A DNA stretch of 53,877 nt. It comes from a virus. The notes under the pieces are model-generated. The model searched no databases, was not told the DNA's origin, and worked only from the letters and a program-made list of their open reading frames with translations. Below are positions 16,680-27,388 of this stretch, one piece after another. The stretch is from the IMG/VR virus record IMGVR_UViG_3300046170_000029, positions 1 through 53,877 of that record; one strand, 5' to 3'. Within the stretch, counting starts at the first letter, position 1. Each line of letters opens with the position of its first letter. Position numbers and translations under genes: made by a program.

Positions 16680-16884
16680 TTACTTCTTCTCTTTTTCTAC
16701 GTATAATAGATACATGTTTAGCAACCCTAATAGAAGGTTGCTCTACATCCATTTCTTTTCTAACCTTATTTGCTTGACCACGTGACAATAAACCACGTGT
16801 AGCTTTTATATCAGTGTCTTCACCTTTTTCAACTTGAAGATTTCTATATAAAGTCTGTGCAGGATTATTTCCAATACTAGCCAT
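16666..16884 (-). CDS. Small basic hypothetical protein
   Basis: 72 residues when started at the ATG at 16884 (MASIGNNPAQTLYRNLQ…), which has AAAAGGATGG upstream. An upstream start at 16908 would add eight residues with no better site. It is rich in Lys/Arg toward the end (SIIRRKREEVNGRA) and soluble. No family recognised. It lies between two virion proteins and overlaps both. Confidence 0.55.
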   Translation of the reverse strand: MASIGNNPAQTLYRNLQVEKGEDTDIKATRGLLSRGQANKVRKEMDVEQPSIRVAKHVSIIRRKREEVNGRA

Positions 16885-19800
16885 ATGACACCATCCTTTT
16901 CTTTTCAACTACTAAGTCCATTAGTTTTTTAGTAACCCATTTAAGCACGGGCTTATTCTTGATAAACTTAGCATAGTCTTCACCATACTTTTTATATAAT
17001 TTAACAAACCACTTAGGTGCTTTGTAGTTTAACCACATACGGAATACATACCAACGTGGGTCACCTTTACCATACACCTCTCTAGCCACCCAACAGAAAC
17101 CACCAAAACTAGACATGATGTACGCACTTCCTAATGTACCTATTAAGCTACCAATAGCATTACCTGCAGCTGTTGATGCTCCTCGTTTAGCAACAGCAGC
17201 TTGAGTGTCAGCATTTAAGTTAGCGATAGACATATCAGCGTATCTATTCAACTCATTCTCAGCAGATGTCCATGCCCATTCCATTGTGTCTCCATAGTAG
17301 TTCCACAAGTTATTATAGGCTTGATTAGATGTCTGCAATAAATTAGTAGCATTTATTTCATTGACACGATTTGTTGTCGCTGTGTTTATTGTAGCAATTT
17401 GCCTTCGCCATTGTGCGTTATTCTGTGCAATTACAAGTTGGTTCTGAGCATTGAAAGTATCACGCTGATTGTTAAGTTCAGCATTAAATCTTTCTAATAC
17501 ATTTCTCTGACCTGCGTTATATTGTGATTGAGCATTGGCTTGAGTTGCATTAAACTGGGCTGTTTGAGTTGCTAGATTAGCAAAGAATTGGTCAGTTTGA
17601 TTTTGACTTGATGCATTAAATTGTCTAGCAGCATTTTCCGCCGCTTGGTCAGTAAACAATGATTGCACTCTTTGCTGTGCCTTAAACAATTCTGTCTGCT
17701 GACGATTACTTAAGTTAGCCATGTCTCTTTGTAAGAATGATTGTGCATTCTGAACTGCTGCTTGCTGTCTGTTATTTAAATTAGCTGTATCTAAGTTAGC
17801 GAGAGCAGAAGCTTCAGCCATAACCAACGCCTGATTATTACTTAAGTTCTGTAAATTCATAGTGTTAGCAACACGACTATTCTCTAGTGCTATCTGTTGT
17901 TCAGCAGTAAAGTTTTGATTAGCTACATCAGCTATTCTAGAAGCATTTTGAACTCTTGCTTGAAAGGCTTGGTCAAACTCTTGACCTATAAACTGTGCAC
18001 GTTGTTGTGCAGCAAGCATTGCTCTCTGCTGTCGATTAGATAAGTTTTGAGATTCAAACTGTGCTTGTGTTTGTGCATCAGCCTGTGCTATTGGAAGGGC
18101 AGATTCTAATGCACCTTGTATAAGTGCTTGACCTGCAATTGAAGATGCACCCAAACCTCTAGCTGCTAGTTTGCCTTGGATAGCACGAAGAGTTCCAGCT
18201 GCCCATGCAGGTGGATTGTTAGCATCAAAGTCTGCAGTAAGTTCAGCTAGTTGCCCTTGTACAGTAGCTTTTGCTGAAGGTGTAGCAGTCGCTGCCTGTA
18301 TTTGCTCAGTGAACTTTGAAGCCTTCTCTGCATCTGCTACACCTGATATTAATTCACCATCCTGTATTTCACGTTGTACAGGGTTCTCTAACAGTGTAGC
18401 GTTACCTTGAGCAGCATCTAAATTACCAACGCTTGATGTTGTTTGTTGTGCTGCAGTAACTTTAGCTCTTGGGTCATTAGGGTCTACTTGAGCTGCTTGT
18501 GTAGCATTTAAAGCTGTGTTTACAGCGGTAGCACTATCAGCGGCAGTCATTGTGGCAGTGTCTGTTTGTGTAGGTACTTCTGCCATAGTCGTAGTAGCCA
18601 TAGCAGTAGGAACTGCGACAGCACCTTCAACCTGACCGACATCAGTTCCTATCATTTGACTAGGGTCTTGCTGTACACCTGCTCCTTGAACCACTGTACC
18701 CGGGGGTAATGAAGGGTCTTGCAGACGTTCTGCAGTTATATCTGTTATATCCCTTTTACTCTTAGGTTGTGCAGGTAAATAACCGGGTATTGTAGCTATA
18801 GGGCTATTTTTTTGTACATTTAAAAGTGAACCATCAACAGTTATACCAGAATCTTGTGCATATTTTTTAAACTCTTCGGTAAAAGTCTTACCATCTTCTC
18901 TATACAGAGGACCACTATATATGTTTTGCACATATTTTAATATTGAATCTGACCTTTTTTTCAAATCCTCTGGTTTAGGAGTAGGTGCTAATTCCTTTTC
19001 TAATTCTTTAGACATCTCATCAAAAGAAGTTTGAATAGCAGGATTCTTAAAAGTTCCTGTTTCAGGAAAAACTTCTACATTTTTTCTGTAGTCAGCATAA
19101 GGGTCTTCAGGTGGTTGATATGGTTGTGTTGTAGGTATATACTGCTGTGGTAACCCTTGAGGTTGTCTTGGGTCAATAGGAAACAAACCACCATCATCTT
19201 CACCTCCAGCCATTGTTTTAGCTATAGGTCGTTGCATAGGTGGTAGCTCAGGTGGTTGCATAGGTGGCACTGGCTCACCTTCTTCACCCTGTGCTTCTGT
19301 TGTAACTTGTGGCGGTCTGTCAAATATAGGTAGAGGTTCTAGTGGTGGCTCACCTTCTTCACCATATGCCATAGTTGTTGCTATAGGGCGATTAGCTATT
19401 AAAGGTCTAGGACCAGTACCATCTTCACCCATAGCTCTAGTTGCTCCGACAGGTCTAGCTATAGCATCAGCCATATTACCATCTTCGCCTACAGCTTGTG
19501 TAATAGGTGGCATAGTTGGAATTTTTCCTATAAGTTTACCACCTATATCGCCATCATCTTCACCGACTGCCATGGTTTTTGCAATAGGTTGATTAACAAG
19601 CGGTGAAAGACTTGGATTAAAATCTTCTGCTCCCCTTGTCATCTGTTTTACTATTTTGGGGTCTAATTGTTGAATATCACCTATAGGCATACCACCACTA
19701 CCATCTTCACCCATAGCTCTAGTTGTTGAACTTACTCGCTTTGGCATTTGGGGAAGGTTACCGCCATATGCTCGTCTAGTTTCTTGACGTGGTGCTTCTG

Positions 19801-20062
19801 GTAGATTTTGTATTTGACCTGCAGGTGTAGTGGGAACAGCACTTTGAAATTGTTTATCATTAAGTGTTCCACCTACTTGCATCTTACGTACAGCACCACC
19901 CTGTGCCATTTGCATAGCACGTTGATTGTACATATTCATCATGTTTTGTTTGTCAGGGTTCTGCTGTAAGTAACTGTCAAAGCCTTCCATGCTACCAGTA
20001 TAACCCATACGGTTAGCTATCTTTTGTAATCCTTGTGGCTTAAAGCCTTTAAACATTGCCAT
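16877..20062 (-). CDS. Large repeat-rich virion protein (1061 aa)
   Basis: Four distinct parts. Residues 1-65 carry paired Gly motifs (AQGGAVRKMQVGG). Residues 110-295 contain seven exact T-x-A-x-G-E-[DE] repeats in a Pro-rich, acidic background. Residues about 560-960 are a long Ala/Gln/Asn-rich helical region with recurring NLSNRQQ units. The last 100 residues (WVAREVYGKGDPRWYVFRMW…) resemble a C-terminal module common in phage tail or internal proteins. It is likely a virion structural protein. It lies 10 bases downstream of the ATP-grasp ligase in the same message, which makes its repeats a candidate substrate. Confidence 0.65.
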   Translation of the reverse strand: MAMFKGFKPQGLQKIANRMGYTGSMEGFDSYLQQNPDKQNMMNMYNQRAMQMAQGGAVRKMQVGGTLNDKQFQSAVPTTPAGQIQNLPEAPRQETRRAYGGNLPQMPKRVSSTTRAMGEDGSGGMPIGDIQQLDPKIVKQMTRGAEDFNPSLSPLVNQPIAKTMAVGEDDGDIGGKLIGKIPTMPPITQAVGEDGNMADAIARPVGATRAMGEDGTGPRPLIANRPIATTMAYGEEGEPPLEPLPIFDRPPQVTTEAQGEEGEPVPPMQPPELPPMQRPIAKTMAGGEDDGGLFPIDPRQPQGLPQQYIPTTQPYQPPEDPYADYRKNVEVFPETGTFKNPAIQTSFDEMSKELEKELAPTPKPEDLKKRSDSILKYVQNIYSGPLYREDGKTFTEEFKKYAQDSGITVDGSLLNVQKNSPIATIPGYLPAQPKSKRDITDITAERLQDPSLPPGTVVQGAGVQQDPSQMIGTDVGQVEGAVAVPTAMATTTMAEVPTQTDTATMTAADSATAVNTALNATQAAQVDPNDPRAKVTAAQQTTSSVGNLDAAQGNATLLENPVQREIQDGELISGVADAEKASKFTEQIQAATATPSAKATVQGQLAELTADFDANNPPAWAAGTLRAIQGKLAARGLGASSIAGQALIQGALESALPIAQADAQTQAQFESQNLSNRQQRAMLAAQQRAQFIGQEFDQAFQARVQNASRIADVANQNFTAEQQIALENSRVANTMNLQNLSNNQALVMAEASALANLDTANLNNRQQAAVQNAQSFLQRDMANLSNRQQTELFKAQQRVQSLFTDQAAENAARQFNASSQNQTDQFFANLATQTAQFNATQANAQSQYNAGQRNVLERFNAELNNQRDTFNAQNQLVIAQNNAQWRRQIATINTATTNRVNEINATNLLQTSNQAYNNLWNYYGDTMEWAWTSAENELNRYADMSIANLNADTQAAVAKRGASTAAGNAIGSLIGTLGSAYIMSSFGGFCWVAREVYGKGDPRWYVFRMWLNYKAPKWFVKLYKKYGEDYAKFIKNKPVLKWVTKKLMDLVVEKKRMVSYG
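19190..19726 (-). repeat. Seven T-x-A-x-G-E-[DE] peptide repeats within the 1061-aa protein
   Basis: Copies start at Thr residues 114, 163, 188, 208, 230, 255 and 283. Each has Ala at +2, Gly at +4, Glu at +5 and Asp/Glu at +6 (for example TMAVGEDDG, TRAMGEDG, TMAYGEEG, TMAGGEDDG). Spacers of 20-49 residues are Pro-rich, and several copies are preceded by [RQ]PIA[KT]. The motif is kept while the spacers diverge, so selection seems to act on the short motif. Confidence 0.85.
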
Positions 20063-20072
20063 ATTATTTTAC

Positions 20073-20840
20073 CTATATATTGTTAAGTTCATATCTTATT
20101 GCTTTAGCTAACTTGCCTTGCACTTCCAAATCAAAAGCTACAAACATAGGACCTGTATTTGTTTCTAAATACCATAGCCCTTCTTCATCTTCCATGAAAT
20201 CACTAGCACCAAAGTTTAAGTTTAATCTTTGCATTAAGTGCTTTACTTTTTCTACTGTAACGTCATCTATTTCTGTAACAACAACCTTACTTTCAGGGTC
20301 ATCTCGGTAGTCTAGTTTATCTGTTACTACCTCAAAAGCAAAGTGTTTATCATTTACAACATACAATCTTTTATTTCTACCTGTTATCTTTTGTTGTATA
20401 ATACAAGGGTAAACAGCTTCGTTGCCTTCTAGTGTATGTTGCCCACCTGTTACAGGTTTTATTATAGTATTCTGTTTAGTGCTTTTTTCGGTTACTTCTG
20501 TGTAAGGTAGTCTTAAACCCAACTGTTTTGCTATGATTAAATTATTTAACTTTCTTACTTCTTGATAACGATAGTCTTTATTATATGTAGTTACTTTGTG
20601 ACATTGTATATAATTACTCAGTATATGAAAGTTTGTATATTTCTTAAAAGTACTCTCTTCAAATACATTGTTTCTCATATATATAGCAGTTAAATCTGTT
20701 ACAGGTTGACCTTCTATATATAATACATCTTCTGTTATATTCCATTCTATGTTAGCGTCTTGGTCTATAAACTTATCAAAAAGAGGATGTAGTGCTTTTA
20801 CATTTGGGTCACTTAATTGACCAAATAAATATGTTGACAT
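20073..20840 (-). CDS. ATP-grasp ligase, RimK/graspetide-synthetase-like
   Basis: 255 residues. After a short N-terminal domain (about 1-95) comes an ATP-grasp fold: nucleotide-binding Lys in IIKP (K128) followed by TGGQHT, a second strand CIIQQKITGRNKRLYVV, and metal-binding residues D214 (GASDF) plus E226/N228 (YLETNTGPMF). The E-x-N and overall order match RimK and MvdC/MvdD-type peptide ligases, which form amide or ester bonds on protein side chains or termini using ATP. It is shorter than those (about 300-325 aa). It lies among tail genes, directly upstream of the T-x-A-x-G-E repeat protein. The substrate is inferred, not shown. Confidence 0.75.
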   Translation of the reverse strand: MSTYLFGQLSDPNVKALHPLFDKFIDQDANIEWNITEDVLYIEGQPVTDLTAIYMRNNVFEESTFKKYTNFHILSNYIQCHKVTTYNKDYRYQEVRKLNNLIIAKQLGLRLPYTEVTEKSTKQNTIIKPVTGGQHTLEGNEAVYPCIIQQKITGRNKRLYVVNDKHFAFEVVTDKLDYRDDPESKVVVTEIDDVTVEKVKHLMQRLNLNFGASDFMEDEEGLWYLETNTGPMFVAFDLEVQGKLAKAIRYELNNI

Positions 20841-20844
20841 ACAC

Positions 20845-21039
20845 CTACTTCATCACAATCGCAACCACTAAAGCTACCACACCAAGTGTACCCACCATAG
20901 ACATAGCTTCTATTCGCCACATTCTTTTGTCTAGGGTTTCTAGCTTGTCATTAACTGCTTGGTAGCGGACAGCACACTCTTTCTCATGTGCATCCAATTC
21001 CATTTGTACTTTGAGTTCAGGTTGTATTTCCATTTTCAC
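20845..21039 (-). CDS. Small coiled-coil plus membrane protein (holin-like)
   Basis: 64 residues: a hydrophilic helical N-terminus with heptads (AVNDKLETLDKRMWRIEAM) followed by one C-terminal transmembrane helix (VGTLGVVALVVAIVMK). This topology is that of XhlA-type and similar small phage membrane proteins associated with lysis. The lysozyme is about 19 kb away in the same arm, so a lysis role is plausible but not certain. It abuts the fibre-assembly gene (shared base). Confidence 0.55.
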   Translation of the reverse strand: MKMEIQPELKVQMELDAHEKECAVRYQAVNDKLETLDKRMWRIEAMSMVGTLGVVALVVAIVMK

Positions 21040-21614
21040 TAGTTCACCTCATCAGGAAAGTCATATATAGGTGCATTTCCTGTTGGAACATTATTTTCAT
21101 CTACAGGTGTTACAAACAGTGCCTTGAACTCATCAAGTGTAGTACAAGCATTAATGGCTGTTTCTATTGTGCCTGTAGCAGTTCTGACCGCTGCTCTGTA
21201 TGTTGCAATATCTGTGGGTATTGCTGTGCCTGTCTCAGCTTTACGAGTTGCATACCAATCTGTGCTTGCTAGTAGACTATTAGCAGTTGATTTGGTTTGA
21301 GCAATCCAAGTTGACTTTAAACCTTTAGTAACTGTCTGATTGCCATCATCATCTAGCATAGGATTACCATCTTCATCAACATCATTAACATCATCTAAAC
21401 TTTTTGGTACATCTTTTGCCCAATAGAATGTTGAATCAAAGCTAGTGTCTTCTTCGTCTTGCCATACTAGACCATTACTAGCTTTGTCTTCATCAGACCA
21501 AATCATCCAGTTTTTAGGATGGACTACATCAAAGCTATTACCATCTTCATCAGTAGCCGAGCCAACCCAACTGCGACCTGCTTTTATTTCTGTTCCATTG
21601 TATAACCAAGCCAT
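21039..21614 (-). CDS. Probable tail-fibre assembly/accessory protein
   Basis: 191 residues. The C-terminal half (LLASTDWYATRKAETGTAIPTDIATYRAAVRTA) matches the pattern of phage tail-fibre assembly proteins: a Trp-Tyr helix, a P-x-x-[IV]-x-x-Y-R-x-A-[VL]-R segment, then short helices. The N-terminus is a beta-rich acidic domain. It follows the two large fibre genes, the usual place for such a chaperone. It probably helps fibre folding or attachment; virion presence cannot be judged. Confidence 0.6.
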   Translation of the reverse strand: MAWLYNGTEIKAGRSWVGSATDEDGNSFDVVHPKNWMIWSDEDKASNGLVWQDEEDTSFDSTFYWAKDVPKSLDDVNDVDEDGNPMLDDDGNQTVTKGLKSTWIAQTKSTANSLLASTDWYATRKAETGTAIPTDIATYRAAVRTATGTIETAINACTTLDEFKALFVTPVDENNVPTGNAPIYDFPDEVN

Positions 21615-21626
21615 TATTATTTTCTC

Positions 21627-24023
21627 CTATCTTGCATTAGCGTATTTAAAAGGTTGCTCTGCGAAAGCTATGTAAATATAAGTTTCACCATTACCATTAG
21701 TTCTGCCATCACCACTTCTAATTTTAAAACCATTAGATGTTAAATCTACATCACTACCCCATGGTGGTGTACCATCAGACTGACTACTGTCTGTAACAAG
21801 GTCTGTTTTTGCAGGATTATAGGCGTTTTGTCTCAATCTATCATACAAAAACCAACTTCTACCCCCATTTGTTCCTTTAAGTATTAAAAAAGCAGGTTTA
21901 AATCCAGTGTAGATAAACGTACCATTTGCCGATGAACCATTTCCCTTGTAAGTGCCTATACTTGAATAGCCCTCTACCTCGTGAAAACAATATGCAACGA
22001 AGTTACCTGAAGATTGATTGATGTGACCATCATTTCCTATTGTGTAAGTCGATGAACCAACTGCCTTAACAGTCTGTGAGTTTGATGTTGTGCCATCACC
22101 TGCATTTAATCTCAAATAACCACCTGTGCCTACATTTTTATGAAATACGGGCCATAACCAACCACTTCCCGGAGAACCACCTTGTCTAAATTTTGTGATA
22201 ATCATATCAGGTGCTTGGGATAATCCATGACCAATAGTTGCACCACTAGTTGCATTACCTGTGTAGGTGAGAATACTAAATCCTGCTTCTTGGTTTGCAC
22301 TTACTGAAGATGTGATAGAGCCATTGGTATTGCTTGATGCACTTCCTCCTGCTTTCCAACTCCAAGCAACATAAGTTCTCCCAGAGGTGTTTACGTCACC
22401 ACCAGAACCAGAACCATTAAGGTCATATCCATCCGAAGCAAAATCAACAAAGCCATTTGCTACAGTTGATTCGTTATCTGTACTATTTGGAAATAGACGT
22501 TTACCCGCACCACGAACAATGTCATGTACTTCATGAGATGTTCCATTGCTTCTTGACTTGAACCATCCCCAATCAGGTTGAAATCCAACGCCTGTTACCG
22601 TTCTAACTCCACCTGTTCCAGTATATAGCACAGTATTAAAATAATCTTTTGCACTTTCATCTTCATCATTATCTATCGCAGCAGTTAGGTTAGCACTACA
22701 TAAAGCTAAATAACCACTAGGAGGTGTATAATAAAAGTCACCTTGTCCGTTAGAGTCGGTGTTACCTTGAGCCGTTACACCACCTGAAAATGAACTATCC
22801 TGACCAAAGTTGATATTTAATTTAGAAGTACCTGCGTTAGCTCTACAATAAATAATTGGAACCCAATCTCCTTCAGGTAGGTTAGTTTTTGCATTACCCT
22901 GACTTGTATTATTCTTACGAAAAGAAATAGTTGTGTTGTCTAAGTCTAACTCAACACCTATTATCTCTCCTCCTGCTTGCCAAGATGCACCATAACTACT
23001 CTGAGAGCCATCGTACCTAAATTGTCCGTTGTCTCTATATATAGCTTCTTTTAATGTATTTACATCCGCAAAGCCAACACCATCTGTCCTAGCACCAGCT
23101 TCTGGTTTGTAAACTTCAAAATACCATTTGCCACTTCTAACACTTGTAGTTCCATATGCTTCACTATTTGTACCAGTGCTTAATCTTAATGCTCCATCAA
23201 TAGCTGTTGCAAAAACATTATGTACTACACCATCACTTTTACCTTCATTGTGCATAGTGCAAAAGTTATTTTCAGGGCAGTCAGGAACGTAGTCATGTGA
23301 GCTTACATTAAATGTAGTAAAGTTATTACCATTACCGCTGCTATCATTACCATTACCATTGAACTCTAGTCTAAAACCATTAGTGCCATATGAACCACTA
23401 TATTGTTTTGGTATCCAAATATCATTTATAGTTTCACCAAATGCTGTAGGAGCTTGTGACGAACCAACATTATTAAATTCAGCTATGTAACCATCATAAT
23501 GATTAGCAACATTGCCTTGCTGATAACCTATCCTGTGACTACTTGTGTTATTCCAAAAAGCAACATTATAGTTTTGCGATGGATAACTAGACGTGGCAAA
23601 GGATGTTTCTTGCTCACCATTGATGTAAAGGCGAACTCTATTTGAAGATGTACCTTGAGTAGTATCTACCCTTACAACAATATGATACCAAGCACCTACA
23701 TCCCTAAAAAGCCTATTTGTTCTTAAGTCTATGTTTCTATTGTTACTTGGTCTGTCAGTAAACAGAAGCTGATGTGAGTTTTCAAACAACAGAGCAGTTT
23801 GGTTGTCCTTTGAGTGATTTGCCTCAAAAATACCTTGCAAGCCTATATTGCTACGCTTAACCCAACAAGATACTGTAAAGGTCTGTCTGTTTGCTGCACT
23901 AGATGGAGTTCTTTGTAAATAAGCACTGCTTGCATCATCAAACCTTAATGACTGCGTAGCTACACCGCTGTAAAAGCCTGTGCTAGGGTTGTACATCCAT
24001 GATGGTGAATTAGTAAGAGACAT
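21627..24023 (-). CDS. Tail fibre/adhesin with LamG-like and SPRY-like domains
   Basis: 798 residues. Residues about 25-230 form a LamG/concanavalin-like beta sandwich (FTVSCWVKRSN… WYHIVVRVDTT… RLYINGEQ). About 270-440 form a SPRY-like domain (GKWYFEVYKPEAG… GDWVPIIYCRANAG). The C-terminal part has repeated Gly/Ser/Thr-rich beta modules (VAWSWKAGG… ILTYTGNA… IGHGLSQAPD). Such proteins are common receptor-binding or adhesin proteins in marine podoviruses. It likely binds host surface sugars or proteins. The start ATG at 24023 follows AAAGGAAACAC. Confidence 0.75.
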   Translation of the reverse strand: MSLTNSPSWMYNPSTGFYSGVATQSLRFDDASSAYLQRTPSSAANRQTFTVSCWVKRSNIGLQGIFEANHSKDNQTALLFENSHQLLFTDRPSNNRNIDLRTNRLFRDVGAWYHIVVRVDTTQGTSSNRVRLYINGEQETSFATSSYPSQNYNVAFWNNTSSHRIGYQQGNVANHYDGYIAEFNNVGSSQAPTAFGETINDIWIPKQYSGSYGTNGFRLEFNGNGNDSSGNGNNFTTFNVSSHDYVPDCPENNFCTMHNEGKSDGVVHNVFATAIDGALRLSTGTNSEAYGTTSVRSGKWYFEVYKPEAGARTDGVGFADVNTLKEAIYRDNGQFRYDGSQSSYGASWQAGGEIIGVELDLDNTTISFRKNNTSQGNAKTNLPEGDWVPIIYCRANAGTSKLNINFGQDSSFSGGVTAQGNTDSNGQGDFYYTPPSGYLALCSANLTAAIDNDEDESAKDYFNTVLYTGTGGVRTVTGVGFQPDWGWFKSRSNGTSHEVHDIVRGAGKRLFPNSTDNESTVANGFVDFASDGYDLNGSGSGGDVNTSGRTYVAWSWKAGGSASSNTNGSITSSVSANQEAGFSILTYTGNATSGATIGHGLSQAPDMIITKFRQGGSPGSGWLWPVFHKNVGTGGYLRLNAGDGTTSNSQTVKAVGSSTYTIGNDGHINQSSGNFVAYCFHEVEGYSSIGTYKGNGSSANGTFIYTGFKPAFLILKGTNGGRSWFLYDRLRQNAYNPAKTDLVTDSSQSDGTPPWGSDVDLTSNGFKIRSGDGRTNGNGETYIYIAFAEQPFKYANAR

Positions 24024-26323: not shown

Positions 26324-27388
26324 CTATCTCCTAGCGTTAGTAATATACTGCAGGGTGGCAGCATCTATGGTAAACACAGCGTCTGTGTTAGTTCCTGTGG
26401 TTTCATATAATATTGACACTGTAAATCCTGAACCTATTGTCTGTACTTCATATATAGCTTTTTGCTTGCTTCCAAATAAAGATGTTCCATATATACCTGA
26501 ACCATATGTTATGGATGCCGCTGCATCACTTGACAATATTGAATCAGGTTGAATACTTGATGGTTGGTCAAAGTCAAACTTGAGAGAAAACTCAAGGTCA
26601 AAGTCACCGTTTACATCTAAGTACGTTGTTCCCTTATATATTGTCTTTCTAACATTTGGGTCTCCTAATGGAATAAAAGGAGTAGCAAATGTAGCAGGAA
26701 TATCTGTTCCAGCAAATGAGTTACCCTGTTCCATCTGATAGACATAACCATCAGTAGCACCAAAGTAAATACGTTCTGCAAAACCATCATATTCACTATA
26801 AGTTACAAAAGCATTAAAGCCACGTAAATCATTGAAAGCTAATCCACTTTCTAATTGGGTTGCTCCAATTGCTTTTGCCGAGTCATTTGTGTATGTTGTA
26901 TTATACCCAAATATTCTATATTGACTTTTCTCACGAATAACTGTACTTGAAAAACCATTAGGACTACTAGCAATTAAATCTAATATTTCAACCTGTATAG
27001 TTTTTGATACAGAAGCAAGACTAAAGTCACCTATTCTATCTGTGGCTGAAAATAATCTTAAACCATCAGGTCCTAAGAATATGACATCACCACCTATCTC
27101 TTGAATGGTATCTTCAGCTACACAACCTAAATCACGAGATACAGGTTGCATTTGAAAATCAACTACACTATTACCATTAAGTACATTTATACTACTTTCG
27201 CTAAATATAATTAATTGTTCACGGAAAACGATTAAACCTGTAATTGTATCCGTTACATTAATTATACCACCACCACTAGCAATTGTCAAGTCATTATCTT
27301 GATAAGGTGCAGTATAAGCTATCTTTTTTCCGTTACCAAAGAATATATGGTTTTTAAAATTGACTACAAAACTTGCACCCTGAAACAT
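26324..27388 (-). CDS. Tail tubular protein B-like, C-terminal part (frame 2 of 2)
   Basis: 354 residues, beta-rich (FGNGKKIAYTAPYQDNDLTIASGGG…), typical of the large tubular/nozzle tail protein of podoviruses. The apparent ATG at 27388 lies inside the upstream frame without a good ribosome site. The natural protein reads …PSDVSG then ASFVVNFKNH…, obtained by dropping one G from TCA GGG TGC. The repaired gene (26324-27848) encodes 507 residues. This part holds the propeller-like body that would form the nozzle below the tail tube. Confidence 0.72.
   Translation of the reverse strand: MFQGASFVVNFKNHIFFGNGKKIAYTAPYQDNDLTIASGGGIINVTDTITGLIVFREQLIIFSESSINVLNGNSVVDFQMQPVSRDLGCVAEDTIQEIGGDVIFLGPDGLRLFSATDRIGDFSLASVSKTIQVEILDLIASSPNGFSSTVIREKSQYRIFGYNTTYTNDSAKAIGATQLESGLAFNDLRGFNAFVTYSEYDGFAERIYFGATDGYVYQMEQGNSFAGTDIPATFATPFIPLGDPNVRKTIYKGTTYLDVNGDFDLEFSLKFDFDQPSSIQPDSILSSDAAASITYGSGIYGTSLFGSKQKAIYEVQTIGSGFTVSILYETTGTNTDAVFTIDAATLQYITNARR

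Follow-up and report, generated by a model that had tools for sequence, protein, structure and literature searches.

The uncultured virus record IMGVR_UViG_3300046170_000029, kin of the HMO-2011 group of marine phages, carries a gene for an ATP-grasp ligase beside a gene whose 1061-aa product displays seven copies of the motif T-x-A-x-G-E-[DE]. As judged by sequence comparison, the ligase is closest to the graspetide macrocyclases, with PsnB of the plesiocin system as its best match, rather than to RimK, and the repeated motif is the plesiocin core motif. Because the phage has its own graspetide-type enzyme and presents the target motif of such an enzyme seven times in the neighbouring protein, the virus probably cross-links part of its own particle. 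We hold with good confidence the overall reading that a phage macrocyclase of the PsnB type rings these repeats in place on the adjoining, probably virion, protein. What the sequences show is the family of the enzyme, the identity of the motif, their co-occurrence and the covariation, whereas bond chemistry, location and function are inferred. The proposal of the initial annotation that the ligase modifies the repeats as a structural modification is thus supported, without experimental proof of either the Thr-Glu linkage or the virion location. Features of the window, by which we mean the whole stretch of 53,877 bases, are collected in Table 1.

Table 1. Positions of the ligase gene, the repeat-bearing gene and its parts in the window.
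Feature	Position	Strand	Remarks
ATP-grasp ligase, 255 aa	20073..20840	-	graspetide-synthetase-like, PsnB/TIGR04187 branch, viral clade
Repeat-bearing protein, 1061 aa	16877..20062	-	homologue of HMO-2011 phage1322_25; presumed substrate, presumed virion/ejection protein
Repeat-bearing segment, residues about 66-310	19133..19867	-	missing from HMO-2011 and other ligase-less homologues
Repeat 1, TRAMGED	19703..19723	-	T before
Repeat 2, TMAVGED	19556..19576	-	K before, D after
Repeat 3, TQAVGED	19481..19501	-	I before
Repeat 4, TRAMGED	19421..19441	-	A before
Repeat 5, TMAYGEE	19355..19375	-	T before
Repeat 6, TEAQGEE	19280..19300	-	T before
Repeat 7, TMAGGED	19196..19216	-	K before, D after
Conserved Q/N/A-rich domain, residues 541-960	17183..18442	-	also in ligase-less homologues; basis of tree

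The ligase stop codon and the start of the 1061-aa ORF are separated by exactly 10 bases, and the ORF listing agrees with the coordinates first given for both genes. The seven copies lie at residues 114, 163, 188, 208, 230, 255 and 283 of the larger protein, divided by diverged spacers of 13-42 aa. When residues 66-310 were shuffled 20,000 times, a mean of 0.001 and a maximum of one copy resulted. The earlier description of seven exact copies with diverged spacers holds. No copy occurred in the other ORFs of the window and of the loci fetched by then (approximately 749,000 residues), except in the same gene of ligase-bearing loci. The copies vary at synonymous sites (ACT, ACC or ACA for Thr, GCT or GCA for Ala). 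Given these differences and the divergence of the spacers, it is the amino-acid motif that has been conserved, and the repeats do not merely reflect recent copying of DNA.

The precursor fragment co-crystallised with PsnB ends in GGPYTTLAIGEE and has the substrate core TTLAIGEE, so that TLAIGEE is an exact instance of T-x-A-x-G-E-[DE]. Related ligases in bacteria adjoin proteins with 2-17 copies of TTxAxGEE; the copies follow HPF...GG leaders, are carried on a folded domain, or come after a twin-arginine-like signal. Four bacterial proteins encoded at L161 (3793-4692), L175 (3721-4650), L164 (5284-6066) and L212 (5041-5826) have 9-16 TTxAxGEE-like copies each, which sit on folded domains, follow a twin-arginine-like signal, or occur in a protein ending in PFGRY or PFGQF. 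These four look like unexplored multicore substrates. Among 292 bacterial copies, the outer Thr or Ser is present in 96% and the outer Glu in 97%, whereas across 153 viral copies both positions are relaxed to other residues, which is also a difference from plesiocin. The inner Thr and Glu occur at i and i+5 in every copy, which satisfies the core-motif criterion of graspetide precursors, although this constancy arises partly by construction, since the search pattern fixed those positions.

Near the 1061-aa gene no dedicated leader, leader peptidase or transporter was recognised, as had been noted at the outset for the peptidase and transporter. The N-terminus of the window protein is common to ligase-less homologues, and at L109, L116 and L128 the cores begin at residue 2-3. 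Known graspetide enzymes require a leader, which may be N-terminal or even shifted to the C-terminus (PMC13003496). As no dedicated leader is visible, we infer that the ligase probably recognises the core directly or through another part of the protein. Because the expectation of a leader, a peptidase and export is not met, we place the enzyme in the macrocyclase branch without filing its product as a graspetide.

Homologues of the 1061-aa protein are annotated only as 'hypothetical'. Its gene, together with three further genes, closes the structural block, and MazG adjoins in relatives. In another group of ligase-bearing phages, which we call polA-linked, the protein that bears the repeats also has an SLT transglycosylase domain and matches internal virion, lytic tail and endolysin families. 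On the basis of this gene position and of the SLT-domain repeat protein, the substrate is probably a virion protein, with an ejection protein as our best guess; the label 'virion protein' in the initial annotation gains from both observations, yet it remains an inference that has not been demonstrated. At L267 (642-2693, minus strand), a 684-aa phage protein bears three T-x-A-x-G-E-D repeats alongside an SLT transglycosylase domain. Elsewhere on the minus strand of the window are encoded a 798-aa protein with Laminin_G_3, SPRY and DUF7483 domains that probably serves as a tail fibre or in receptor binding (21627-24023), a 191-aa protein similar to tail fibre assembly proteins or tail assembly chaperones (21039-21614), and a 354-aa protein with a match to a family of phage amidases and a weak one to internal virion proteins (26324-27388). 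In Pelagibacter phage HTVC033P (L012, 3088-4432), two adjacent 2OG-Fe(II) oxygenases are located in the same gene block, upstream of the homologue of the 1061-aa protein, and this pair is possibly another modifying module at that spot.

PsnB and AMdnC process multiple cores in a distributive manner (PMC5934393). By analogy, the ligase is predicted to use ATP to phosphorylate the carboxylate of the invariant Glu in each repeat. The invariant Thr lies five residues before this Glu, and its hydroxyl would then attack to form an omega-ester ring, each ring costing 18 Da. Some copies may have a second, outer link between the residue before Thr (Thr/Ser or Lys) and the acid after Glu. Since neither a dedicated leader nor a peptidase or transporter was recognised, the ringed product would stay in place, such that the neighbouring protein, probably an internal or ejection protein of the virion, could carry up to seven short ringed loops. 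The most likely use of these loops would be to resist or inhibit proteases, guarding the particle protein while virions are assembled or cross the host envelope.

Action against proteases of the host, perhaps serine proteases, is the function we prefer by analogy, and it is unproven. It remains quite possible that the rings only stiffen or shield the protein and have no protease-related role, given that the repeats form part of a large phage protein for which ring closure is a plausible stabiliser, and that protease inhibition is untested. Two points speak against this simpler function. Serine proteases are inhibited by graspetides such as microviridin and plesiocin, and by plesiocin more potently the more of its motifs are cyclised (PMC13097080), and the viral residue that follows Thr is the variable one (M, R, Q or L), which corresponds to position 5, the position that sets protease specificity in microviridins (PMC7823629). 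Returning to the anti-protease function, its most elaborate form is one we offer only tentatively and regard as rather doubtful: that a virus-specific macrocyclase clade, present in several phage lineages, puts arrays of plesiocin-like rings on particle proteins delivered with the DNA, and that the variable residue behind each Thr turns these into multi-headed serine-protease inhibitors able to disarm or withstand proteases of the host envelope at entry.

The outer motif positions were left free by the search pattern, and their residues covary across the 153 viral copies. Thr or Ser at position -1 is paired with Glu at +6 in 56 of 77 copies, and Lys at -1 with Asp at +6 in all 20; where another residue occupies -1, Glu is found at +6 in only 5 of 56 copies and no acid in 22 of 56. 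Shuffling within each protein, which takes out differences between phages, reached the observed T/S-E (55) and K-D (20) counts in none of 20,000 trials. Such covariation is expected if the outer side-chain pair is also joined, as a Thr-Glu ester or a Lys-Asp amide. However, the copies are still kin by duplication, and therefore the evidence for a second, outer link in some copies is strong but not conclusive. The same chemistry could conceivably act between chains or between repeats, stapling copies of the protein together without forming small rings. No result excludes this arrangement, and the spacers between the repeats, which are rich in proline and glycine, look flexible. Nevertheless, the pairing residues covary inside single copies, and the i, i+5 spacing is that of the plesiocin core, in which the hairpin rings form within one motif (PMC13097080). 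We consequently judge stapling to be improbable relative to rings within each motif.

When used alone, the window ligase is only weakly recognised, by PsnB in the PDB (3.8e-6) and by TIGR04187, the ATP-grasp ribosomal peptide maturase model (2.5e-11). Its NCBIfam score against TIGR04187 (GRASP_SAV_5884) is 43.3 bits, which does not meet the curated cut-off of 350, and thus we do not file it under that family; the bacterial relatives tried also fall under the cut-off (39-161 bits). Additional members were collected with a DNA pattern for the C-terminal motif LExNxxxMFxxF[DE] of the enzyme, a search in which the repeats played no part, and this added about 30 viral ligases and many from bacteria. 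The assigned catalytic residues K128, D214, E226 and N228 proved invariant across 72 aligned ligases, and the same holds for Q149, R158, D177, R179 and P231-M232-F233. A profile of the 72 sequences retrieves PsnB at 1.1e-51, AMdnB at 2.9e-32 and MdnB at 1.2e-30, with graspetide synthetases spanning 1e-51 to 1e-26, and RimK at 1.3e-8. An AlphaFold model built from the 72-row alignment of viral and bacterial ligases has a pLDDT of 95.3 and a pTM of 0.90, whereas six close ligases alone gave a pLDDT of 34. In a PDB fold search with this model, complexes of PsnB with peptide rank at the top, and BFVD returned distant viral ATP-grasps only.

The ligase had been described as RimK/MvdD-like, with graspetide-type and RimK-type chemistry both entertained; the family-model and profile searches favour the graspetide branch over the RimK branch. 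We considered that a RimK-like ligase might instead add amino acids such as glutamates to the Glu or Asp of the repeats without forming rings. RimK folds follow PsnB closely (Foldseek E 2.4e-13), so that fold alone is not decisive and the profile decides, and the PHROG match of the window ligase is named S6 glutaminyl transferase. This reading is nonetheless very improbable. PsnB leads RimK by more than 40 orders of magnitude in the profile search, the window ligase has no match to the Pfam RimK model and none to TIGR00768 at E<=0.01, and tagging of acids alone would predict neither an invariant Thr at fixed spacing nor the T-E and K-D covariation.

On a quick tree in which some branches are long, the viral ligases form a single clade (SH-aLRT 99) that is distributed over at least six phage backbones, with cyanobacterial, proteobacterial and planctomycete ligases placed next to it. 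A search of INPHARED with five viral ligases found no matching phage record.

On the conserved-domain tree, changes in ligase and in repeats coincide, and the two co-occur even where they are unlinked, a pattern that the sequences support. Repeats as a general trait of the 1061-aa protein family are not borne out: 94 homologues without a visible ligase, including the INPHARED phages examined, have zero copies. In the enlarged tree set, among homologues for which both traits could be scored, the motif is present in 10 of 10 with a ligase and absent from 63 of 63 without one, for concordance in all 73 informative homologues. The repeat label requires seven changes on the tree, six of them forced by well-supported branches, and the supported branches hold five independent ligase contrasts, all of them concordant; the best tree has six. 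A sign test on independent pairs gives p=0.0625, which is the best attainable with five pairs and cannot reach 0.05.

Among the viral ligases collected with the enzyme-only DNA pattern, the repeat gene adjoins the ligase at ten loci (L105, L109, L114, L116, L125, L131, L138, L141, L146 and L147), and at L120 and L123 only the ligase end is visible. On quite different backbones, the repeat gene is directly downstream of the viral ligase. In the polA-linked group the ligase adjoins a DNA-polymerase-like gene and the repeats are 10-15 kb away, yet both are present in all five records longer than 17 kb. A DNA scan with the motif alone returned 32 loci with at least two copies, of which two have the ligase in the same locus; among the 30 other repeat records, G003, G005 and G008 proved to bear a ligase. 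Many repeat-bearing contigs are fragments that are uninformative on ligase presence, and the longer ligase-less records G024, G028, G037 and G039 end at or before the expected ligase position. Every repeat-bearing record with a full ligase-side polA gene has the ligase (5/5). For the single-copy loci from the scan, a ligase search found none. It had been proposed that repeats without a ligase, or a ligase without repeats, would count against the pairing. No clean counterexample emerged, and two cases are unresolved: G031, an incomplete repeat-bearing record of 18.8 kb in which no ligase was seen, and L121, a contig with a bacterial-type ligase and no repeats in the stretch covered. That the two genes adjoin only by chance or shared descent is scarcely credible, even though the closest pairs come from related phages and many loci are fragmentary, in view of the five independent contrasts that co-change, the unlinked co-occurrence and the same pairing in bacteria.

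The plesiocin system (PsnB and PsnA2) is the nearest known counterpart, with the closest solved enzyme by profile and fold, the core T-x-A-x-G-E-[ED], and several cores per precursor chain (PMC5934393). Its differences are that PsnB has 334 aa, making the phage-encoded ligase about 80 aa shorter, and that the phage substrate is a large presumed virion protein without a GG-site leader, a peptidase or a transporter. The uncharacterised, TIGR04187-like multicore loci of cyanobacteria, Planctomycetes and Proteobacteria encode the nearest ligases on the tree and repeat the motif up to 17 times, but on secreted-looking or small cellular proteins with the full TTxAxGEE. RimK, the S6 glutamate ligase, shares the ATP-grasp fold and acts on protein carboxylates, but differs in its far weaker profile match, its glutamate-tail product and the lack of a repeat substrate. 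In the capsid of HK97, side chains of a phage particle protein are known to be joined covalently, but as Lys-Asn amides that form autocatalytically, with no ATP-dependent ligase taking part. Our literature search, which was not exhaustive, found no description of graspetide-type enzymes or ATP-grasp modification in phages or virions.

The ring chemistry is of a known kind, and what is new is the clade of viral ligases, the lack of a leader and the presumed particle protein as substrate. If our interpretation is correct, this virus would encode a RiPP-type macrocyclase that acts on its own particle protein without leader or secretion, and an enzyme-made side-chain ring would join the known modifications of virions. 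A leaderless cyclase would also become available to protein engineering, and there would be a hint that phages bring peptide protease inhibitors into cells.
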